NCBI RefSeq assembly: GCF_006716885.1 | Contig: NZ_VFPU01000001.1 | Span: 434,001-498,000, forward strand | Reading direction: 5' to 3' | Length of the DNA: 64,000 nt | Origin: Ornithinimicrobium humiphilum | GTDB taxonomy: Bacteria > Actinomycetota > Actinomycetes > Actinomycetales > Dermatophilaceae | Translations under genes and position numbers: made by a program | The notes under the pieces: generated by a model | Seen by the model: the letters and a program-made list of their open reading frames with translations, nothing else | What the model was told of the DNA's origin: nothing | Database searches by the model: none | Shown: positions 1,336 through 27,806 of the stretch, piece after piece | Position numbering within the stretch: the first letter of the stretch is position 1 | Layout: each line of letters begins with the position of its first letter

Positions 1336-4116
1336 GTGACTGCAGGACGCAAGCTCGTCATCGTCGAGTCGCCAGGCAAGGTCAAGAGCATCGGCGACTA
1401 CCTGGGCCCCGACTACACCGTCAACGCCAGCATCGGCCACATCCGTGACCTCCCGAACCCCTCCGAGCTGCCCCCGGAGCTGAAGAAGGGGCCCTACGGC
1501 AAGTTCGCGATCAACGTCGAGGACGACTTCGAGCCCTACTACGTGGTCGACGCCGACAAGAAGAAGAAGGTCGCCGAGCTCAAGCGCCAGCTCAAGGAGG
1601 CCGACGAGCTCTACCTCGCCACCGACGAGGACCGCGAGGGCGAGGCCATCGCGTGGCACCTCCTCGAGGTCCTCAAGCCCAAGGTCCCCGTCAAGCGGAT
1701 GGTGTTCCACGAGATCACCAAGGAGGCCATCCGCCGGGCCGTCAACGAGACGCGCGACATGGACATGCACCTCGTCGACGCCCAGGAGACCCGCCGCGTC
1801 CTCGACCGCCTCTACGGCTACGAGGTCTCGCCGGTGCTGTGGCGCAAGGTCAAGCAGGGCCTGTCGGCCGGCCGGGTGCAGTCCGTCGCCACGCGCATGG
1901 TCGTCGAGCGGGAGCGCGAGCGTATGGCGTTCCGCTCGGCGTCGTACTGGGACGTCGAGGGCGACTTCGCGCCCCAGGGTGGCGGCCCCTCCGCCAGCAA
2001 CGCCTTCACCGCCCGGCTGAACGCGGTGGACGGTCGCAAGGTCGCCACCGGCCGCGACTTCAACGACGACGGCACGCTGAAGTCCAGCAAGGTCGTCCAC
2101 CTCGACGCCACCGCCGCGCAGGCCGTCGCCGACGGGACCCGCGAGGCCGACGTCGTCGTCAGCGAGGTCGCCGAGAAGCCCTACACCCGTCGTCCGTCGG
2201 CGCCGTTCACGACCTCCACGCTGCAGCAGGAGGCCTCCCGCAAGCTGCGCATGAACAGCCAGACCACGATGCGCACCGCCCAGCGCCTCTACGAGGGCGG
2301 CTACATCACCTACATGCGGACCGACTCGACGACCCTGTCGAGCTCGGCCGTCAGCGCCGCCCGTGCCCAGGCGCGGGACATGTACGGCGCCGACTACGTG
2401 CCCGAGACGCCCCGCGTCTACGGCAAGAAGTCGAAGAACGCCCAGGAGGCGCACGAGGCGATCCGCCCCGCCGGCGACCGCTTCCGCACCCCGGCGCAGG
2501 TGGCCGGCGAGCTGCGCAACCAGGAGTACGCCCTCTACGAGCTCATCTGGAAGCGCACCGTCGCCTCGCAGATGGCCGACGCCAAGGGTTCCACCGCGAC
2601 CGTCCGGCTGCGCGCCACGCTGCCCGAGGGCACGCGCGCCGGTGACGGCACCGAGCTGCGCACCGCCGAGTTCTCCGCCTCCGGCACCGTCATCACCTTC
2701 CGCGGCTTCCTCGCCGCCTACGAGGAGGGTCGCGACGAGGCCCGCTACGGCGACGACGAGGGTGTCGGCACCCGTCTGCCCAAGCTGTCCGAGGGCGTCG
2801 CGCTCGAGACGCTGCGCGCCGAGGCCGAGGGGCACCAGACGGTCCCGCCGGCCCGCTACACCGAGGCCACGCTGGTCAAGGCGCTGGAGGAGAAGGGCAT
2901 CGGCCGCCCCTCCACGTATGCCGCCACGGTCGGCACGATCCAGGACCGCGGCTACGTGCGCACCCGGGGCTCGGCGCTCATCCCGACCTGGCTCGCGTTC
3001 GCGGTGACCCAGCTGCTCGAGCGGCACTTCCCGACGCTGGTCGACTACGACTTCACCGCGTCGATGGAGGAGGACCTCGACCGCATCGCCCGCGGCGAGG
3101 CCCAGCGCGTGGCCTGGCTGCGCCGCTTCTACTTCGGTGACGAGGCGACGCACGCCGAGGGCCTGCGCGACCTGGTCCAGGACCTCGACGAGATCGACGC
3201 CCGCGGCGTCTCGACCGTCGAGATCGGCGACGGCGTCGTCGTGCGCGTCGGTCGCTACGGGCCCTACGTCGAGCTGGTCGGCGAGGACGCCCCAGGCGAG
3301 GGCGGGCAGCCGCGCCGTGCCACGGTGCCCGACGACATCGCCCCCGACGAGATGTCGGTGGAGAAGGCGCACGAGCTGCTCGCCGTGGCTGCCGACGACG
3401 GCCGGGTGCTGGGCACGGACCCCGAGACCGGCCACGAGATCGTCGCGAGGGCCGGTCGCTACGGTCCCTACGTCACCGAGGTGCTCCCCGAGACCGACGA
3501 GGCGCCCAAGCGTGGGGCCAAGAAGCCCAAGCCGCGCACCGGCTCGCTCTTCAAGGACATGGACCTCGCGTCCATCGACCTCGACACCGCGCTTCGGCTG
3601 CTCTCGCTGCCGCGCGTCGTGGGCGTCGACCCCGAGACGGGCGAGGAGATCACGGCGCAGAACGGCCGCTACGGCCCCTACCTCAAGAAGGGCACCGACT
3701 CGCGCTCGCTGGAGACCGAGTCGCAGATCTTCGACATCACGCTCGACCAGGCCCTCGCGATCTACGCCCAGCCCAAGCAGCGCGGTCGCGCCGCGGCCAA
3801 GCCCCCGCTGGCCGAGTTCGCCGAGGACCCGGTGTCGGGCAAGAAGGTCGTCGTCAAGGAGGGCCGCTTCGGGCCCTACGTCACCGACGGCGAGACCAAC
3901 GCCACGCTCCGCAAGGGTGACGAGCCGGAGTCGCTGACCGCCGAGCGGGCCTACGAGCTGCTCGCCGAGAAGCGTGCCAAGGGCCCGACCACCCGCAAGC
4001 GGGCGGCGAAGAAGACGACGACGAAGAAGACCGCCGCCAAGAAGACGACGGCCAAGAAGGCGACCGCGAAGACCGCGACCAAGACCGCGACCAAGACCGC
4101 CGCCAAGAAGGCCTGA
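1336..4116 (+). CDS. topA: DNA topoisomerase I (type IA)
   Basis: TopA relaxes negatively supercoiled DNA by single-strand passage. The 926-aa product starts with the TOPRIM domain (VIVESPGK with Glu11; acidic triad D97, D99, E101 in TDEDREGE). The nicking tyrosine is about Tyr326 in GGYITYMRTDS. Several C-terminal repeats with the core GRYGPYV (or GRFGPYV) follow instead of zinc fingers, as is usual in actinobacteria, and the protein ends in a tail of about 45 residues rich in Lys, Ala and Thr. GTG 1336 is preferred over the GTG at 1261 because GGAG lies 7 nt upstream and the protein then starts directly at the TOPRIM strand. A -10-like TACCGT at 1257-1262 may be its promoter. Confidence 0.96.
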   Translation: MTAGRKLVIVESPGKVKSIGDYLGPDYTVNASIGHIRDLPNPSELPPELKKGPYGKFAINVEDDFEPYYVVDADKKKKVAELKRQLKEADELYLATDEDREGEAIAWHLLEVLKPKVPVKRMVFHEITKEAIRRAVNETRDMDMHLVDAQETRRVLDRLYGYEVSPVLWRKVKQGLSAGRVQSVATRMVVERERERMAFRSASYWDVEGDFAPQGGGPSASNAFTARLNAVDGRKVATGRDFNDDGTLKSSKVVHLDATAAQAVADGTREADVVVSEVAEKPYTRRPSAPFTTSTLQQEASRKLRMNSQTTMRTAQRLYEGGYITYMRTDSTTLSSSAVSAARAQARDMYGADYVPETPRVYGKKSKNAQEAHEAIRPAGDRFRTPAQVAGELRNQEYALYELIWKRTVASQMADAKGSTATVRLRATLPEGTRAGDGTELRTAEFSASGTVITFRGFLAAYEEGRDEARYGDDEGVGTRLPKLSEGVALETLRAEAEGHQTVPPARYTEATLVKALEEKGIGRPSTYAATVGTIQDRGYVRTRGSALIPTWLAFAVTQLLERHFPTLVDYDFTASMEEDLDRIARGEAQRVAWLRRFYFGDEATHAEGLRDLVQDLDEIDARGVSTVEIGDGVVVRVGRYGPYVELVGEDAPGEGGQPRRATVPDDIAPDEMSVEKAHELLAVAADDGRVLGTDPETGHEIVARAGRYGPYVTEVLPETDEAPKRGAKKPKPRTGSLFKDMDLASIDLDTALRLLSLPRVVGVDPETGEEITAQNGRYGPYLKKGTDSRSLETESQIFDITLDQALAIYAQPKQRGRAAAKPPLAEFAEDPVSGKKVVVKEGRFGPYVTDGETNATLRKGDEPESLTAERAYELLAEKRAKGPTTRKRAAKKTTTKKTAAKKTTAKKATAKTATKTATKTAAKKA

Positions 4117-8763: not shown

Positions 8764-10359
8764 GTGGCGTTCCTACCCACCCCTGCGGGGTCGCGCACGA
8801 GCACCGGCGCCGGTGGCACCCGCCGCCCGGCCCGGCCTGCCCGCACCCTGGCGGCGGCGCTGACGGCGCTCGCCCTGCTCGCCGGCTGCTCGATCGGGGG
8901 CGGCGACGAGGACGGACCGTCCGGGGACGGTGGCGCGACGAGCACGTCCACGCCGCTGCCCGACGGCGCGCCCGAGGGGCTGGAGCGCTTCTACGGCCAG
9001 CAGCTGGAGTGGAGCGAGTGCCAGACGGCCTTCGAGTGCGCCACCCTCGAGGTCCCGATCGACTACGCCGAGCCCGACGGCGCTACCATCGAGATCGCCC
9101 TGCTGCGCGTGCCGGCGCGCGGCGACTCGGAGGGCTCGCTCGTGGTCAACCCCGGCGGTCCGGGTGCCTCGGGGGTCGACTTCGCCTCGATGGCCGGTGC
9201 CGTCTTCTCCGGCGAGGTCCGCTCCGCCCTCGACGTGGTGGGCTTCGACCCTCGCGGCGTGGGCCGCTCGGCGCCGATCGACTGCGTGAGCGACGACGAG
9301 CTGACCGAGTTCCTCGGGGCCGACCCGACGCCGGACGACGAGGCCGAGGAGCAGCAGCTGGAGGAGACCCTCCGGCACTTCGCCGAGAGCTGCGTCGAGA
9401 ACGCCCCCGACCTCGCGGCCCACATCTCCACGATCGAGGTGGCCCGCGACATGGACGTGCTGCGCGCCGCCCTGGGCGAGGAGACGCTGACCTACCTCGG
9501 TGCGAGCTACGGCACCTACCTCGGCACCGTCTACGCCAACCTCTTCCCCGACCGGGTGGGCCGGTTCGTGCTCGACGGCGCGATGGACCCCACCCTGGAC
9601 GGCATCGAGGTGGGCAAGGGTCAGGCCGCCGGCTTCGAGCGCGCCACGCGCGCCTACGTCGAGGACTGCGTCGCCTCGGGCGGCTGCCCGCTCGGCGACG
9701 ACGTCGAGTCGGCGCTCGCCGCGATCCCGGCCTTCCTCGAGGCCGTCGACGCCGACCCGCCGACGGTCGGCGGTGACACGGTGGGCCGGCTCACCGAGGG
9801 CTGGGCCTTCTACGGCATCGTCGTCGCCATGTACGACCAGGGCACCTGGCCGATCCTCACCCAGGCCCTGGAGCGGGCGATGGCCGGCGACGGGACCCTG
9901 ATGATGTTCCTCGCCAACAGCTACACCAGCCGCGACGCCGACGGCTCCTACACCTCCAACATGATGGAGGCCTTCCCGGCCGTCTCCTGCCTCGAGGCGG
10001 AGGACGACGACCTGGACCAGGAGGAGCTGGAGCGCGAGTTCCTCGAGGTCTCGCCGACCTGGGGCCGGCACTTCGCGGCCCCGAGCGCCTGCGAGTACTG
10101 GCCGGTCAGCGCCACGGAGACCCTCGAGGAGTGGTCCGCCCCCGGCGCCGCGCCGATCGTGGTGATCGGCACGACCCGTGACCCGGCCACCCCCTACGAG
10201 TGGGCCGAGCGGCTCGCGGAGGTCCTGGAGTCGGGCGTGCTGATCTCCTACGACGGCGACGGCCACACCGCCTACGGGCGCTCCAACGACTGCGTCGACG
10301 ACGCCGTGGACGCCTACCTGCTGGAGGGCACCGTGCCCGAGGACGGCCTGCGCTGCTGA
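8764..10359 (+). CDS. Secreted alpha/beta-hydrolase lipoprotein, tripeptidyl aminopeptidase-like
   Basis: The 531-aa product has a signal peptide ending in the lipobox LLAGC and a Gly/Asp/Ser-rich linker. An alpha/beta hydrolase domain follows with the nucleophile elbow GASYGTYLG, and a TAP-like C-terminal domain provides the catalytic histidine region (DGDGHTAYG). Conserved oxyanion-loop residues are in NPGGPGASG. Relatives such as Streptomyces SlpD/SlpE and Tap remove short peptides from protein N-termini outside the cell. GTG 8764 is preceded by a GAGAGG-type ribosome site and lies 16 nt after holB, so it may be co-transcribed. Confidence 0.88.
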   Translation: MAFLPTPAGSRTSTGAGGTRRPARPARTLAAALTALALLAGCSIGGGDEDGPSGDGGATSTSTPLPDGAPEGLERFYGQQLEWSECQTAFECATLEVPIDYAEPDGATIEIALLRVPARGDSEGSLVVNPGGPGASGVDFASMAGAVFSGEVRSALDVVGFDPRGVGRSAPIDCVSDDELTEFLGADPTPDDEAEEQQLEETLRHFAESCVENAPDLAAHISTIEVARDMDVLRAALGEETLTYLGASYGTYLGTVYANLFPDRVGRFVLDGAMDPTLDGIEVGKGQAAGFERATRAYVEDCVASGGCPLGDDVESALAAIPAFLEAVDADPPTVGGDTVGRLTEGWAFYGIVVAMYDQGTWPILTQALERAMAGDGTLMMFLANSYTSRDADGSYTSNMMEAFPAVSCLEAEDDDLDQEELEREFLEVSPTWGRHFAAPSACEYWPVSATETLEEWSAPGAAPIVVIGTTRDPATPYEWAERLAEVLESGVLISYDGDGHTAYGRSNDCVDDAVDAYLLEGTVPEDGLRC

Positions 10360-10419
10360 GGCGCCGACGGGTCCTGCCTCCGGACGCCGACGGCCTGCGC
10401 GGCCGGACCCCGGGCCGGC

Positions 10420-10450
10420 TTTTGGGCCAGCCCCGGTCCTCGGGTATCCT
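10420..10450 (+). promoter_or_regulatory. Probable tRNA-Thr promoter
   Basis: TTTTGG (10420-10425) and TATCCT (10445-10450) are spaced by 19 bp, ending about 26 nt before the mature tRNA. This A/T-rich patch stands out from the G+C-rich surroundings. Confidence 0.5.
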
Positions 10451-10476
10451 TCCTGCGGTCGTCCCCGTGACGGCAT

Positions 10477-10550
10477 GCCGCCTTAGCTCAGTCGGCCAGA
10501 GCGATTCACTCGTAATGAATAGGTCAAGGGTTCGATTCCCTTAGGCGGCT
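10477..10550 (+). tRNA. tRNA-Thr (anticodon CGT)
   Basis: A 74-nt cloverleaf can be folded by hand. The acceptor stem GCCGCCT/AGGCGGC is perfect (7 bp) with discriminator U. The D-arm is GCTC/GAGC, the anticodon stem ATTCA/TGAAT carries loop CTCGTAA, and the T-arm is AAGGG-TTCGATT-CCCTT. Anticodon CGU reads the Thr codon ACG. The CCA end is not encoded. A strong hairpin follows 5 nt downstream. Confidence 0.97.
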
Positions 10551-10555
10551 CGTCA

Positions 10556-10589
10556 GAACGGCCCCCGGTGCACGCACCGGGGGCCGTTC
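10556..10589. terminator. Strong hairpin after tRNA-Thr
   Basis: A perfect inverted repeat of up to 16 bp (10556-10571 with 10574-10589) with a minimal loop lies between the tRNA and the convergent DUF3352 gene. It can serve both strands. No long T-tract is present. Confidence 0.8.
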
Positions 10590-10615
10590 TCGTGCCTGGT
10601 CTCAGCGGGGGACGC

Positions 10616-12181
10616 TCACTCCTGCGCCTCGTCGGCGACGAAGCGCATCGTGAAGCGGCCCTCGTCCGCCGACTCCACCGTGCTCGTCATGCCCACGGCG
10701 GCCAGCGTCTCCAGGGAGCTGCGCACCTGCTCGTCGTCGATCATCGGCAGGTAGTACTGCTCGAAGGCGTTGACGTTGACGTAGAAGACGGCGTCGGCGC
10801 CCTCGTCGACCGTGGCGCGGAAGGTCGCGTCCTGGCCGAGCGTGCCCTCCGGGGCCGCCAGCCCGTCCACGTAGGCCTGGTCCAGGCCGAGCGTGAGCAC
10901 CCCGTCGTCGGTGCGCTGGGCCAGCATCGAGGGCGGCATCCCGGCGTCGGTGAGCAGCGTGACCACGGCGGCCGCGTCGGTGGCCGCGCGGTAGCCGATC
11001 GGCAGCTCCGGCATCCCGGTGCTGGTCTCGCTCACGGTGCTGAAGGCCTCGACCACGCCCGGGCCGACGGCCAGCGTCATGGAGTCGCCCAGGACGGTCT
11101 TGAGGTCGTCGGGGAGGGTGAAGCCCTCCTCCGCCGCCGAGGCGGTGACGTCGGCGACGTCCTCGGGGTAGGTCGCGGCGTAGTAGTCCCACGCGGCCTG
11201 GACCCAGGCGGCGCCGTTCTCCATGGAGATCGCGGCGGCCGTGTCGGCCGGGAGCTGCTCGACCAGCGGGTCCACCCCCGAGCCGCCGGCAGGCAGGGCC
11301 AGGCCCTCCATGCCGCGGTTGACGCCGGTGACCTCGATGGCGTCCGCCGACAGCCGGACGGCGGCGGCCATGCGACCGTTCATCAGGTCGGCCTCGGTGC
11401 TCAGCTCGTCGAGCATGCCGGTCGAGTCGAGCTCGGGGTCGGCCAGCGCCGGGGCCAGGTCGCCGAGGCGGGAGGCGTCGGCCCACACCGAGGCGATGCC
11501 GGCGTCGCCGAGGGCGTCCATGTCGTCGGCGTAGGCCTCGTGGTCGTCCAGCGTGCCCTGCTGGGCGGCGGCCCTGAGGTCCTCGAGGGCGTCCGCCGTG
11601 GTGAAGACGACGTAGTCGTCGTCGAGGTAGTAGGCCAGCTCGGTCTCGCCCTCGGTCATCTCGTCCTCGGCGGTGAGCCGGTCGAGCGTGTCCAGGGCCA
11701 GCTGGCCGTCCTTGACCTGCAGGGCGACCGCGACGATCGGCTCCTGCTCGGCCCCGCGGGGCACGAGTGCCACGCCGAGCCGGTCGCCGAGCCACGGCTC
11801 GATGTCGGCCTCGAAGTCGACGTCGCCGGGGACCTCTTCCCCGTTCGCGAGCTGCTCCCAGGCCCACTCGCGCCACTCGCCGGCGTCGAGGCGGGCCTTG
11901 GTCTCGGGGTCGAGGCCCTGGAAGAACCGGACCGCGGCGACCTTCTGGCCCACCGAGGGGTTGACGTCGACCCGGGCGTAGACCGCGGCCGAGGCCGGCA
12001 GCACGCTGTCGGGCTGGTCCCCGCCGCCGGCTCCCAGGATCGCGACCGCGGCGTAGGCGCCGCCTCCCACCAGGACCGCCGCGCCGACGACGCCCGCCAC
12101 GAGCGGGCCACGCCTGCGGCCACGTCCCCGTCCCCCGCGCTCGCTCAGGTCCCCGTTCGGGTGCTCCATCACGGTGCTCAT
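10616..12181 (-). CDS. DUF3352 domain membrane-anchored protein
   Basis: The 521-aa product has a short cytoplasmic Arg-rich N-terminus and one transmembrane helix (about residues 25-46). A large extracytoplasmic domain follows, starting SVLPASAAVYARVDVNPS, which matches the actinobacterial DUF3352 family. The family has no established function. ATG 12181 is chosen because GGGGA lies just upstream; a second Met (12169) and an upstream ATG at 12307 are alternatives. It converges on tRNA-Thr. Confidence 0.8.
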   Translation of the reverse strand: MSTVMEHPNGDLSERGGRGRGRRRGPLVAGVVGAAVLVGGGAYAAVAILGAGGGDQPDSVLPASAAVYARVDVNPSVGQKVAAVRFFQGLDPETKARLDAGEWREWAWEQLANGEEVPGDVDFEADIEPWLGDRLGVALVPRGAEQEPIVAVALQVKDGQLALDTLDRLTAEDEMTEGETELAYYLDDDYVVFTTADALEDLRAAAQQGTLDDHEAYADDMDALGDAGIASVWADASRLGDLAPALADPELDSTGMLDELSTEADLMNGRMAAAVRLSADAIEVTGVNRGMEGLALPAGGSGVDPLVEQLPADTAAAISMENGAAWVQAAWDYYAATYPEDVADVTASAAEEGFTLPDDLKTVLGDSMTLAVGPGVVEAFSTVSETSTGMPELPIGYRAATDAAAVVTLLTDAGMPPSMLAQRTDDGVLTLGLDQAYVDGLAAPEGTLGQDATFRATVDEGADAVFYVNVNAFEQYYLPMIDDEQVRSSLETLAAVGMTSTVESADEGRFTMRFVADEAQE

Positions 12182-23413: not shown

Positions 23414-24586
23414 CTAGCGGTCGATGTCGCCGACGACGAAGAACATCGACCCCAGGATCGCCACCATGTCGGCGACCACCGTGCCGGGCAGCATCTCCCG
23501 GAGCACCTGGACGTTGTTGAAGGACGCCGAGCGCAGCTTGAGCCGGTGCGGGGCCTTGTCGCCGCGGCTGACCAGGAAGTAGCCGTTGTGGCCGAGGGGG
23601 TTCTCGGTGTGCAGGTAGGCGTCGCCCTCGGGCACCTTGAGGACCTTGGGCAGCTTGGTGTCGTAGGGCCCGGGGCCGATCTCGCGCAGCCGCTCGGTGC
23701 AGGAGCGGGCGAGGTCGAGCGAGACGTGCACCTGCTCGGCCAGCACCTCGAGGCGGGCGTGGCAGTCGCCGGCCTCGCGGGTCACGACCCGGCCCGGACC
23801 GCCCTCGGCGAAGAGCTCGCCGTAGGCCAGGTAGGGCTCGTCGCGCCGCAGGTCGAGGTCGAGCCCCGACGCCCGGGCGATCGGACCGGTGACGCCGTGG
23901 GCCAGCACCCGCTCGACGTCGAGCACCCCGACCCCGCGGGTGCGGGCCTCGACGATCTCGTTGCCCAGCAGCAGCGACTCCAGCTCCGGCATCCGGGAGC
24001 GGACCTTCTCCACGGCGGCGTCCACGCGGTCGAGCCAGCCGTCGGGCAGGTCGTGCAGCAGACCCCCGACCCGCGTGCACATGTAGTGCATGCGACCGCC
24101 GGAGAACTCCTCCATCACGGCCTGCAGCTCCTCGCGCTCGCGGAAGGAGTAGAACATCGGCGTGATCGCGCCCAGCTCCAGCGGGTAGGAGCCGAGGAAC
24201 ATCAGGTGGTTGAGCACCCGGTTGAGCTCGCTGAGCAGGGTGCGCGTCCAGGTGGCGCGCTCGGGCACCTCCATGCCGAGCATCTGCTCGACGACCAGCG
24301 CTGCACCGACCTCGTTGCTGAAGGCGGAGAGCCAGTCGTGCCGGTTGGAGAGCACGAGGATCTGCCGGTAGTCGCGCGCCTCGAAGAGCTTCTCCGCCCC
24401 GCGGTGCATGTAGCCGATGACCGGCTCGGCCCGCACGATCTGCTCGCCGTCCACCGTGATGCGCAGCCGCAGCACGCCGTGCGTGGCCGGGTGCTGCGGC
24501 CCGATGTTGAGCACCATCTCGGTCGTGCTCAGGCCGCTGACGCCCGAGCCGGCTCCGAGGGACACGTCGAGGTCGCGGGTGCTCAC
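23414..24586 (-). CDS. Stand-alone NuoD-like complex I 49-kDa subunit homologue
   Basis: The 390-aa product is full length for the NuoD/NDUFS2 family: [13 protein letters not shown] near residue 29, then [12 protein letters not shown], and [13 protein letters not shown] and [20 protein letters not shown] at the end. No other nuo gene lies in the window. The usual quinone-binding His is kept (His36), but the quinone-binding Tyr (Tyr87 in Thermus Nqo4) aligns with Trp85 (NRHDWLSAF). Arg62 in MHRGAEK corresponds to the arginine methylated in human NDUFS2. GTG 24586 lies 10 nt after the MidA-like methyltransferase, so the two are probably co-transcribed. The electron acceptor is unknown. Confidence 0.9.
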
Positions 24587-24596
24587 CCGGCCCACC

Positions 24597-25622
24597 CTAC
24601 TGAGCGGCCCCGCCGGGCGGCGGCACCACGACGGTGACCCACCCGAAGTCGCCCAGCCCGCCGGGGGCGCTGAGCGCGCCCAGGGCGGCACGACGCGCCA
24701 GCGCCCGCAGGTATGCCGTGGGCCGGCTCCGCGCGAGCTCGTGCGGCACCGGCGCGTCGGCCCCGGGCAGCAGGTCGGCCAGCGCGTCCCGCTGGCTGGT
24801 GAGCTCCACCCGTCGGCCCTCCCCGCGCAGGCCGTCGACCAGGCTGTCGAGGGCGACGTGCGCGGTGACGTCGCAGGAGCCGTCGGGGACCGGGGCGACC
24901 TGCCGCCCGTCGCGATAGCCGGTGAGGCTGCCGCCGGGAGGGCGGGCCTCCCGCTCGTGCCCGTAGTCGACGAGCAGCAGCACGCCGTCGCCGAGGCGGG
25001 CCAGCAGGTCGGCGGCGGCCCGGTCGCGCGGCAGCCCGACCTCGGCGCGGGCGACGTCCTCGGGCACCCAGCGCTCCAGCCAGCCGAGGTCGTCGCCCGC
25101 GACGGCGGGCCCGAGGACCTCGACGCCGTCGCGGCGGACCAGGACCTCGCGCCAGCTCCCCGACGCGTCGCGCTCGACCACCGGGCAGGGCACGACGTCG
25201 AGCCACTCGTGGCCGACGGCGAGCGTGCGGCCCGGCCCGGCCAGCCCGTCGGGGAGGGCGGCGCCGCCGGGGGAGACGAGCCACGGCATACCCGTGCCGG
25301 GCGGAGCCCGGTCGACGACGTCGACGCCGACGAGCGCGAGCTCGGGATCGATCTCGTGCACCGCCGCGAGCAGCTCGCCCCCGCCCGCCCCGACGTCCAC
25401 CACGCGGGTGCAGCCGTGCCGGTGGGCGAGCTCGGCCACGGCGGCCGCGAGCACCTCGCCGCCGCCGGGGATGCCCTGGGCCGAGGTGGCGAAGTGCCGG
25501 GCCGGAGGCGCCGAGCGGTAGAAGCCGCCGGAGCCGTAGAGCGCGTCGTGCCAGGCGCCCGGCCAGGGCCGGGGGACGTCGTCGCTGCTTGGCTCGGGAC
25601 CCACGTGCCGATTCTGGCCCAT
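24597..25622 (-). CDS. MidA/NDUFAF7-family SAM-dependent methyltransferase
   Basis: The 341-aa product matches the DUF185/Methyltransf_28 family. It has a divergent SAM loop ([12 protein letters not shown]), the family segment [14 protein letters not shown] followed by SWREVLV, and LLLVDYGHE with [11 protein letters not shown]. In mitochondria the homologue NDUFAF7 symmetrically dimethylates one arginine of NDUFS2, the NuoD homologue. Here the gene immediately precedes a NuoD homologue that keeps that arginine, so it is the obvious substrate candidate (inference). ATG 25622 is used; an in-frame GTG at 25604 is an alternative. Confidence 0.85.
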
Positions 25623-25680
25623 GGGTCGTGATGTCGCATTCTTGCTAGACCAGGACGGGGTCGTGCCGCAGCATGGAGGG

Positions 25681-27288
25681 GTGCACCTCGACCACGACCG
25701 TTGCGCCGCCGCCGTGCGGAGCAAGGACTCCCGCTTCGACGGGTGGTTCGTCACGGGCGTGCTGTCGACCGGCATCTACTGCCGGCCCAGCTGCCCGGCG
25801 ATCACCCCGAAGGTGGTCAACATGCGCTTCTACCCCTCCGCCGCCGCGGCGCAGGGGGCGGGCTTCCGGGCCTGCAAGCGCTGCCGGCCCGACGCGACAC
25901 CGGGCTCGCCGGAGTGGCGCACCCGCGGCGACGTCGCAGCCCGGGCCGTGCGGCTGGTCGCCGACGGCGTCGTCGACCGGGAGGGCGTCGCGGGCCTGGC
26001 CTCGCGGCTGGGCTACTCGGTGCGACAGGTCGAGCGGCTGGTGGCCGCCGAGCTCGGCGCCGGGCCGCTCGCCCTCGCCCGGGCCCAGCGCGCGCAGACG
26101 GCCCGCCTCCTGGTCGAGGGGACCGACCTGAGCATGGCCGACGTCGCCTTCGCCGCCGGCTTCTCGAGCATCCGCTCCTTCAACGACACGGTCCGCGCGG
26201 TCTACGCCACCACGCCCCGCGAGCTGCGGACGGCCGCACGGCGGCGCGACGGGACCCCGCCGTCCCTGCCCGGCCGGTCGGGCGGGACGGTCGGCGGTGG
26301 TGCCCACCCCGCCCTGCTGCACCTGCGCCTGCCCTTCCGCCCTCCGCTGTCGGCCGCCGGCCTCTTCGGTCATCTCGCGGCCACCCGGGCGCCCGGCGTG
26401 GAGGTCTGGCGGGACGACGGCCTCGAGCGCGCGCTCCGCCTGCCGCACGGGCCCGCCGTCGTCCGGCTCGGCCCGCCCCGCCCTGACGACCGGCACGTCC
26501 CCGTCGTGCTGCGGCTGCTGGACGTGCGCGACCTCTCGGCCGCCATCGACCGCTGCCGCCGCCTGCTCGACCTCGACGCCGACCCGCAGGCCGTCGACGA
26601 GCACCTCGCGCTCGACCCCGCCCTGCGACCCCTCGTCGCGCGCACGCCGGGCGTGCGGCTCCCGGGCAGCGTCGACGCCGGAGAGCTGGCGCTCCGCGCC
26701 GTCCTGGGGCAGCAGGTCTCGACCGTCCGGGCCGGAGCCCTGGCGGCCGCGCTGGTCGCCGCGCTGGGGGAGCCGCTGCCCGCGGGGCTCGTCGATCCCG
26801 GCGGTCCCACCTCGCTCTTCCCGACGCCGGAGGCCCTGGCCGGGGCGCCGGACGCGGCCTACCCCGGGATGCCGGGCGCCCGGCGCGGCGCGCTGCGGGC
26901 CCTGGCCCTCGCCCTGGCCACGGGCGACCTCGACCTCTCGCCGGGCGCCTCCTGGTCGACCGCCCGCGCCGGCCTGCTGGCGCTGCCCGGCATCGGGCCG
27001 TGGACCGCCGAGATCGTCGCCCTCCGCGGTCTGGGCGATCCCGACGCCCTGCCGGTCGGCGACGTCGGGCTCCGGGCCGCGGCCCGCGCCGTCGGTCTCG
27101 ACGACGCCCCACGAGCCCTGGAACGCCGGGCGGAGGCCTGGCGGCCGTGGCGCTCCTACGCCGTCCAGCTGCTGTGGTCCTCGCTCGACCATCCTGCCGC
27201 CCGGCTGCCCCCGCCCGACCCGCACCACGCCACCGGCCGCCCCCGGCCGCCCGCCCCCGCACCGCTCCGACCCCAGGAGGCCTCATGA
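25681..27288 (+). CDS. Ada/AraC-AlkA fusion: methylation sensor and 3-methyladenine glycosylase
   Basis: The 535-aa protein joins three modules. Residues 1-75 form the Ada zinc domain with Cys34, Cys38, Cys65 and Cys68, the exact Ada spacing; one Cys accepts methyl groups from DNA phosphotriesters. An AraC-type HTH follows at about 80-180. AlkA makes up the rest: an N-terminal domain, then HhH-GPD with [16 protein letters not shown] and the catalytic Asp in DALPVGDVG. It can thus sense and repair alkylation damage. GTG 25681 fits family N-termini, although GGAGG is only about 1 nt away. It overlaps ogt by ATGA. Confidence 0.92.
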
Positions 27289-27806
27289 CCACCGCCACCC
27301 GCTCCGCCCTGGAGCACCTCGTCGTCGACTCGCCCGTCGGCCCGCTCACGCTGGTCACCGACGGCACCGCCCTGGTGGGGCTCTACTTCGCCGAGCACCG
27401 GCACGCCCCCGGCGACGTCGGGCGCGCCGTGGACCGCCAGGACGCGCCCGCCGTGCTCGTCGAGACCGCGCAGCAGCTGGAGGAGTACTTCGCCGGCACG
27501 CGCACCGACTTCGACCTGCCCGTGGCGGCCACCGGCACGGACTTCCAGCACCGCGTCTGGGCCAGGCTGCGGGAGATCCCCTACGGGCAGACCCGCTCCT
27601 ACGGCCAGCTGGCCGCCGAGCTCGGCAGCCCGGGCGCCTCCCGCGCCGTGGGTCTGGCCAACGGTCGCAATCCCGTCTCGATCGTCGTGCCCTGCCACCG
27701 CGTGGTCGGCTCGACCGGCGCCATCACCGGCTACGGCGGCGGCGTCGAGCGCAAGCAGCAGCTGCTCGACCTCGAGCGGCGCACGGCCGGCGCCGCGCTG
27801 TTCTGA
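27285..27806 (+). CDS. ogt: Methylated-DNA-[protein]-cysteine S-methyltransferase
   Basis: This suicide enzyme removes methyl groups from O6-methylguanine. The 173-aa product has the active-site motif IVVPCHRV with Cys137, the Arg-finger region [14 protein letters not shown], and an N-terminal RNase-H-like domain. AGGAGG lies 4 nt before ATG 27285. Coupling to the Ada-AlkA gene (ATGA) makes a two-gene alkylation-repair operon that is probably autoregulated by the Ada part. Confidence 0.95.

Follow-up and report, generated by a model that had tools for sequence, protein, structure and literature searches.

In mitochondria and in Paracoccus an enzyme of the NDUFAF7/MidA family is paired with the D subunit of complex I (NDUFS2 in mitochondria), whose HRGxEK motif holds an arginine beside cluster N2. 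According to the accessible sections of the papers cited here, the residue carries a symmetric dimethylation in complex I of human, bovine, Pichia and Paracoccus origin and is not so modified in E. coli, and its place is taken by a threonine in Thermus (PMC3829151, PMC3750175), where Arg83 of the NuoB subunit Nqo6 fills the same space and where Yarrowia has a threonine (PMC8042128). In Streptomyces a second nuo set (nuoA2, B2, D2 and H2-N2) has been noted, with nuoD2 lying apart; spare or hybrid subunits were suggested, and the function of nuo2 was called unclear (PMC3765725, PMC8388888, PMC9239103). An 11-subunit operon, nuoABCDHIJKLMN, that lacks nuoE, nuoF and nuoG is also known, with ferredoxin as the proposed donor, a proposal made for Desulfitobacterium (PMC11238625). 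Here we describe a nuoD gene (nuoD2) and an adjoining gene for a MidA-type methyltransferase in a stretch of 64,000 nucleotides of Ornithinimicrobium humiphilum (contig NZ_VFPU01000001.1, positions 434,001 to 498,000; the whole stretch is called the window). Very probably this pair comprises the detached D subunit of a second 11-subunit complex I (nuoA2B2C2D2H2-N2, with no NADH module) and a dedicated arginine methyltransferase predicted to modify it.

The two genes, and the codons of three residues in NuoD2, are placed as follows in the window:

23414..24586, minus strand: nuoD2, predicted D subunit of a second 11-subunit complex I; GTG start, 390 amino acids; assigned from Pfam, NCBIfam and trees
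24597..25622, minus strand: MidA/NDUFAF7-type (DUF185, PF02636) methyltransferase; 341 amino acids; assigned from Pfam, a profile and a structural model
24401..24403, minus strand: codon of Arg62, equivalent to bovine NDUFS2 Arg85; the canonical NuoD of the same genome has Thr
24332..24334, minus strand: codon of Trp85, which replaces the quinone-binding Tyr (Tyr87 in Thermus Nqo4)
24479..24481, minus strand: codon of His36, conserved and aligned with Thermus Nqo4 residue 38, the second quinone ligand

NuoD2 residue numbers count the GTG at 24586 as M1 and are one higher (63, 86 and 37) in the stored protein P0001. NuoD2 matches Pfam PF00346 with 232.9 bits and NCBIfam NF004739 with 377 bits (cut-off 360), and its 382 bits against the NuoD equivalog TIGR01962 fall below the curated cut-off of 459. 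The MidA gene lies upstream on the same strand, separated from nuoD2 by 10 nucleotides (24587-24596), and its product matches PF02636 with 50.2 bits (cut-off 23.3) and no NCBIfam model. When the window was searched by tblastn with references for the canonical and second-complex Nuo proteins only these two genes matched, and no other nuo gene, apart from a weak MidA match at 3451-3951 (E 1e-4). The first-pass annotation, which was made from the letters alone, was therefore accurate in describing an intact NuoD homologue preceded 10 nucleotides away on the same strand by a DUF185 methyltransferase, with no nuo genes nearby besides this one, and in stating that the target arginine is kept, the motif being HRGAEK with Arg62 at 24401-24403.

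The same annotation had called this NuoD stand-alone, a description that must be given up, as the other ten subunits are encoded elsewhere in the genome in a second set that has no nuoD. The genome (3.44 Mb in five contigs; G000 in our sample) carries the pair at 0.457 Mb of a 2.87-Mb contig and the other ten nuo2 genes at about 2.70-2.72 Mb of the same contig, 2.2 Mb apart:

G000 C1:2718877-2719834, minus strand: nuoA2 and nuoB2 (stretch L214), B2 confirmed by Pfam
G000 C1:2710781-2711326, minus strand: nuoC2 (stretch L181), confirmed by Pfam
G000 C1:2701106-2708710, minus strand: nuoH2-I2-J2-K2-L2-M2-N2 (stretch L181), I2 and L2 confirmed by Pfam

About 7.5 kb of other genes separate B2 from C2, and 2 kb separate C2 from H2; the search for NuoH placed its second copy at C1:2707763-2708671. 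No match for nuoD, nuoE, nuoF or nuoG was obtained in the nuo2 stretches of this genome, and the nuo2 stretches fetched from across the class gave none for NuoE, NuoF or NuoG. There are only two NuoD genes in G000, the second of which, 39% identical to NuoD2, sits inside a canonical operon running from nuoA to nuoM in one stretch, as does the sole NuoF match of the genome. In that operon B, D, F and H were identified by family or search and the remaining genes by order and length, and nuoN would fall outside the fetched stretch. Since the nuo2 set holds A, B, C and H to N without nuoD, the pair in the window is its missing D subunit together with a methyltransferase.

The Streptomyces nuo2 genes resemble this arrangement, being a second nuo set without the NADH module and with nuoD2 separate, and this NuoD2 family also occurs in named Streptomyces records. 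They differ in that the accessible parts of those papers describe nuo2 without nuoC, whereas nuoC2 was confirmed here (PF00329) in G000, G120, G145 and G047, none of them a named Streptomyces, which completes the set to 11 subunits. The long C-terminal tail of one nuoC2 product (stretch L192, near 7963) is rich in Pro and Ala and repeat-like. A membrane M48 peptidase (HtpX-like, PF01435; L181:3182-4057 and homologues) is encoded in 13 of 19 nuo2 stretches, adjacent to nuoN2 or elsewhere in the stretch.

The second complex was followed in 31 genomes with NuoD2 or a detached relative, namely all 14 found among 99 evenly sampled genomes of the order, nine other members of the class from a phylum sample of 246 genomes and eight of a family designated f30, and in 14 hand-picked genomes without NuoD2 (ten of the order and four of the class). 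NuoB2 (at least 268 bits) was present in 31/31 positives and 0/14 negatives, and NuoH2 (320-348 bits) in 30/31 and 0/14, the exception being genome G001. The full ten-gene set without nuoD was recovered from nine of the 15 class genomes fetched (G000, G016, G090, G047, G004, G022, G061, G120 and G256) and from three of the four f30 genomes fetched; in the remainder the region is cut by the end of a contig or stretch, or at least one gene went undetected. No fetched nuo2 stretch of the class or of f30 yielded a nuoD. Scattered chance losses were rejected, as two genomes of one genus from the family of the genome studied here (G032 and G076) lack NuoD2, MidA, NuoB2 and NuoH2 together. Genome G047, rated 100% complete, has all four of these proteins and gave no match for canonical NuoD, NuoB or NuoH or for any NuoF. 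Because it holds the genes of the second complex without the canonical ones, it is the strongest single argument that NuoD2 would serve the second complex instead of the canonical NADH enzyme. A NuoD without partners is ruled out by the second nuo set, the co-occurrence with NuoB2 and NuoH2, and G047.

The presence of MidA followed that of NuoD2 almost perfectly. In the order sample NuoD2 was found in 14 genomes, a MidA relative in 15 and both in 14 (Fisher p 4e-16, kinship uncorrected), the single MidA among the other 85 genomes being that of G061, which has NuoB2 and NuoH2, carries MidA about 1 kb from a contig end and showed no NuoD2 at E 0.01. The PF02636 profile gave 12 matches above its cut-off on the 99 genomes, all within the 15 with MidA, and one weak match below it; among 14 control genomes it also matches Caulobacter, Synechococcus and Haloferax. 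In the phylum sample MidA occurs in 12/12 genomes with NuoD2; outside these it was found in 40 of the 71 genomes with an 11-subunit-type NuoD (at least 372 bits) versus 6 of the 163 others, and of those six G115, G126 and G130 also carry an NuoD with the arginine (Arg-type) and G184, G290 and G335 show a Thr-type NuoD only. The MidA matches of G016, G014 and G047 contain stops at matched residue 7 or in the last residues. In G335, where no NuoD2 was found, MidA stands back to back with a NuoB2 gene (L211, G335:C21, 5427-6950).

The first-pass annotation had proposed a survey of gene neighbourhoods, and its outcome agrees with the suggested pairing: among the named records, the best 80 of 586 confirmed NuoD2 relatives, MidA accompanies NuoD2 in 79, with the two in the same locus in 72 and MidA elsewhere in the genome in seven, one of these a partial match. 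Since they share a locus in 72 of these 80, the pairing is not chance. In 16 of these 72 two-gene loci MidA lies upstream on the same strand within 250 nucleotides; in 50 it is upstream at a greater distance, and in six the two genes converge. The two-gene operon that had been proposed is thus sound for the window, with its 10-nucleotide same-strand gap, and does not carry over as a general layout. Two other neighbours were rejected as members of the module because they are lineage-specific: a class V aminotransferase/cysteine desulfurase-like gene (named by eye) near nuoD2 in 30 of the 80 loci, among them L078 and other Streptosporangiaceae, and a P450-like gene between MidA and NuoD2. The canonical complex does not need MidA, because only 14 of the 52 order genomes with canonical NuoD have it.

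By sequence and predicted fold the methyltransferase in the window is a member of the NDUFAF7/MidA family, with NuoD2 as its putative substrate. A profile of 18 MidA relatives matches the solved COG1565 proteins 4f3n (6e-23) and 1zkd (9e-17) and the Dictyostelium NDUFAF7 homologue 5ztz (9e-9). The AlphaFold2 model has a mean predicted local distance difference test score of 91, and its six best PDB chains are all COG1565 proteins or Dictyostelium NDUFAF7/MidA, with TM-scores of 0.64-0.70 and 16-24% identity. Residues G80, G82, E139, W140, L141 and D142, which comprise the glycines of the S-adenosylmethionine motif and the acidic EWLD motif, are invariant in the 18 sequences, and presumably have a catalytic role.

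The two NuoD proteins of this genome differ at the residue itself: canonical NuoD has a threonine or serine where NuoD2 has the target arginine; within this genome only NuoD2 carries it. Residues were counted without a motif filter on an alignment of 162 distinct NuoD rows, sorted by best reference, so that f30 rows may fall in either Arg/Trp class. Arginine at the HRGxEK site and tryptophan at the quinone-Tyr site occur in 107/107 readable NuoD2 rows (one fragment, L105, was unread). The other 11-subunit-type rows have the arginine in 31/31, with Trp in 25 and Tyr in six, and canonical rows have Thr/Tyr in 21 and Ser/Tyr in one (22/22). Row L216 (Arg/Ala, with Ala in its NuoB-like neighbour) was taken for a hydrogenase-type protein and left outside the canonical count. 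These counts bear out the suggestion of a modifying enzyme beside its likely substrate, MidA tracking the NuoD that has the target arginine and not the canonical one. The case that the first-pass annotation had named against itself, a complete nuo operon elsewhere whose NuoD alone is methylated, is excluded for Arg62, a position at which canonical NuoD carries Thr.

The NuoB subunits show the reciprocal pattern. Among distinct operonic pairs, every NuoD with Arg (26/26) is partnered by a NuoB with Thr, and 20 of the 22 with Thr or Ser by a NuoB with Arg, the other two being unread NuoB fragments; all 45 distinct NuoB2 rows have Thr. The alignment places this NuoB switch residue on Nqo6 residue 83, and the best PDB match is bovine NDUFS7 for NuoB2 and bacterial NuoB (8e9g) and Thermus for canonical NuoB. 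The canonical actinobacterial complex thus shares the state described for Thermus thermophilus (NuoD Thr, NuoB Arg; PMC8042128), whereas the second complex of the same cell has the mitochondrial one (NuoD Arg, NuoB Thr). Judged from these residues, both N2 arginine states coexist in one cell, and MidA goes with the mitochondrial state. At the quinone site NuoD2 lacks the head-group Tyr (Thermus Nqo4 Tyr87) and has Trp instead. The quinone-site His (Thermus Nqo4 His38) is present in 142/142 rows of four groups (rows with HxGxEK, plus four of f30), and the His, Glu and Lys of HRGxEK are conserved. A segment HHFK, found in 20 of 21 canonical rows, is absent from NuoD2 (rows with the motif).

Deeper in the phylum, NuoD2 has its nearest relatives, at most 57% identical, in the D genes of intact nuoABCDHIJKLMN operons without EFG, some of which (L161, L175) have MidA at the end of the operon. 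In trees that sample Actinobacteriota only, and from which rows with stops, rows below 330 amino acids and repeated rows were left out, NuoD2 nests within the 11-subunit group and apart from canonical NuoD (branch support 100/97). In family f30 nuoD is likewise away from the ten-gene cluster, and these proteins group with the operonic relatives and not with NuoD2 (96/89), so that by this tree nuoD was separated from its operon on two or more occasions, or on a single one followed by a return. MidA lies on the same contig as the detached nuoD, 46 bp to 6.7 kb away, in seven of eight f30 genomes and on a different contig in G198; in a ninth, G119, neither an f30-type NuoD nor MidA was found. Four of four detached f30 proteins (L168, L169, L212 and L213) read HRAAEK for HRGxEK, with the arginine kept and the next Gly replaced by Ala.

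We propose that MidA would bind newly made NuoD2 and dimethylate Arg62 before or during docking with NuoB2. Arg62 would then lie beside cluster N2, occupying the space taken in the canonical complex by an arginine of NuoB, and the modified residue may key NuoD2 to NuoB2, an idea that adopts the key and lock of PMC8042128. The predicted 11-subunit complex would pass electrons from a cytosolic low-potential donor, most likely ferredoxin, to menaquinone, through a quinone site that appears altered by the Trp in place of the head-group Tyr, and would pump protons. A ferredoxin-like donor is likely because the complex has no NADH module, and ferredoxin might be reduced, for example, by the 2-oxoglutarate:ferredoxin oxidoreductase KorAB. 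In 16 of the 24 nuo2 genomes of the class KorA is encoded no more than 12 kb from nuo2, the distance being 11 kb in the genome studied here (KorA and KorB checked by Pfam). It was not found in G047 or G014 and is present in 6/14 genomes without nuo2, so KorAB as an obligatory donor is not supported and its proximity to nuo2 is a lead only. A broader scenario, which we offer tentatively and would tilt slightly against as a whole, is that many Actinobacteria run two complexes I in opposite N2 switch states, namely a Thermus-type NADH enzyme (NuoD Thr/NuoB Arg, quinone Tyr) and a mitochondrial-type, MidA-methylated, ferredoxin-fed 11-subunit enzyme (NuoD Arg/NuoB Thr, with Trp for the 'strictly conserved' Tyr), with the methyl-arginine as an identity lock against mixing of subunits and with MidA staying beside nuoD even off the operon.

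The explanation that we consider unlikely, without dismissing it, accepts NuoD2 as the D subunit of the second complex and gives MidA another substrate, such as NuoC2, NuoB2 or a small molecule, so that the two would be linked only as parts of a shared complex I assembly kit. The actinobacterial MidA is indeed remotely related to NDUFAF7 (16% identical to 5ztz in the structural comparison), there are genomes with an 11-subunit-type NuoD and no MidA, and some genomes with MidA show no Arg-type NuoD; the arginine is nevertheless present in every readable NuoD2, and MidA sits near nuoD, not near the nuo2 cluster, in two lineages in which the tree indicates separate detachments of nuoD. It is quite improbable that NuoD2 replaces NuoD in the canonical complex under some conditions to give a variant complex I. 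Mixing of nuo and nuo2 products was proposed for Streptomyces (PMC3765725, PMC9239103), and canonical NuoD is also present in 13 of the 14 order-sample genomes with NuoD2. However, G047 shows no canonical complex, NuoD2 goes with NuoB2 and NuoH2, and, given the reciprocal switch between D and B, a pairing of NuoD2 with canonical NuoB is predicted to crowd two arginines into the same space. We give very little credence to the idea that NuoD2 acts independently of complex I, say as a chaperone or moonlighting protein: the absence of detectable membrane-arm nuo2 genes from G001, in which NuoD2, MidA, NuoB2, NuoC2 and NuoI2 remain, would fit it, whereas the occurrence of NuoB2 in 31/31 NuoD2 genomes and 0/14 others and the conservation of the complex I residues checked (the quinone-site His and the His, Glu and Lys of HRGxEK) speak against it.

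Several observations weigh against a second complex I whose D subunit is methylated by MidA, which is still the reading that we prefer. Genome G001 retains NuoD2 and MidA though only NuoB2, NuoC2, NuoI2 and a 123-amino-acid stub of NuoH2 were found of nuo2, at a separate place (L218, G001:C1:443000-462500, 9783-11963), a reduced set that might reflect either a membrane arm lost naturally or a cluster still decaying. The 14 negative genomes were chosen by hand, and the counts are uncorrected for kinship. A real limit is that 31 of the 71 phylum genomes with an 11-subunit-type NuoD outside NuoD2 give no MidA match; conversely, G061, G184, G290 and G335 have MidA and no detected Arg-type NuoD. 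The NuoD2 of the draft genome G015 (L014, G015:C318) has an in-frame TAG at matched residue 37, which could be genuine or stem from an assembly error. In E. coli the arginine stays unmodified (PMC3750175), six Arg-type NuoD proteins of other lineages keep the Tyr, so that Trp does not mark the whole Arg type, and KorA lies near nuo2 in only those 16 of 24 genomes.

Around the pair the window holds ftsH-folE-folP-folB/K-like genes (named by eye) on the plus strand, adjoining it; as the first-pass annotation had stated, folate genes lie near the pair in other actinobacteria too (gene names by eye, loci of the best 80 of 586 relatives). At 25642-27806, starting just upstream of MidA on the opposite strand, are Ada/AlkA-like and Ogt-like DNA repair genes (by eye). 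Elsewhere in the collection a third kind of NuoD-like protein, 30-36% identical, was met (G075:C269, G075:C46, G089:C69, G046:C8 and G031:C47), with NuoH-like and NuoB-like matches nearby, probably from a membrane hydrogenase-type complex. A contig labelled as an Acidobacteria metagenome-assembled genome (L076, QEUR01000116.1) encodes an 88% identical NuoD2 in an Ornithinimicrobium-like gene order and is probably mis-binned.

The split nuoD2 itself is not new, since the Streptomyces papers already note it. What appears new, within the literature searched, is the enzyme that partners it, the full complement of subunits, how widely the complex occurs and the presence of both switch states in a single cell. 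The accessible parts of the Streptomyces nuo2 papers (PMC3765725, PMC8388888, PMC9239103) make no mention of MidA, the Arg switch or the Trp; in the open-licence literature, whose partial coverage makes absence a weak sign, no link of MidA with nuoD2 or nuo2 was found, and a narrow literature search returned nothing related to Trp at the quinone Tyr. Compared with mitochondria and Paracoccus, with which this system shares a MidA-family enzyme and the HRGxEK arginine beside N2 (PMC3829151, PMC3750175), the predicted target here belongs to an 11-subunit enzyme without an NADH module, in Actinobacteriota, and MidA is 16-24% identical to its solved relatives. The known 11-subunit operon has the same subunit set with nuoD inside it, whereas here nuoD is detached, paired with MidA, and has Trp for the quinone Tyr.

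For the nuo2 cluster these results supply a full subunit list and testable partners, and they put on offer a natural Trp variant of the quinone-binding Tyr. In the accessible part of PMC8042128 the role of the dimethyl-arginine is described as not yet separable from that of the residue itself. Most of the sampled hosts have the predicted methylated-type enzyme in addition to a canonical complex without the arginine, so that midA, nuoD2 and Arg62 could be changed one by one in a tractable Streptomyces, and a poorly understood step in the assembly of complex I would become testable in soil bacteria.

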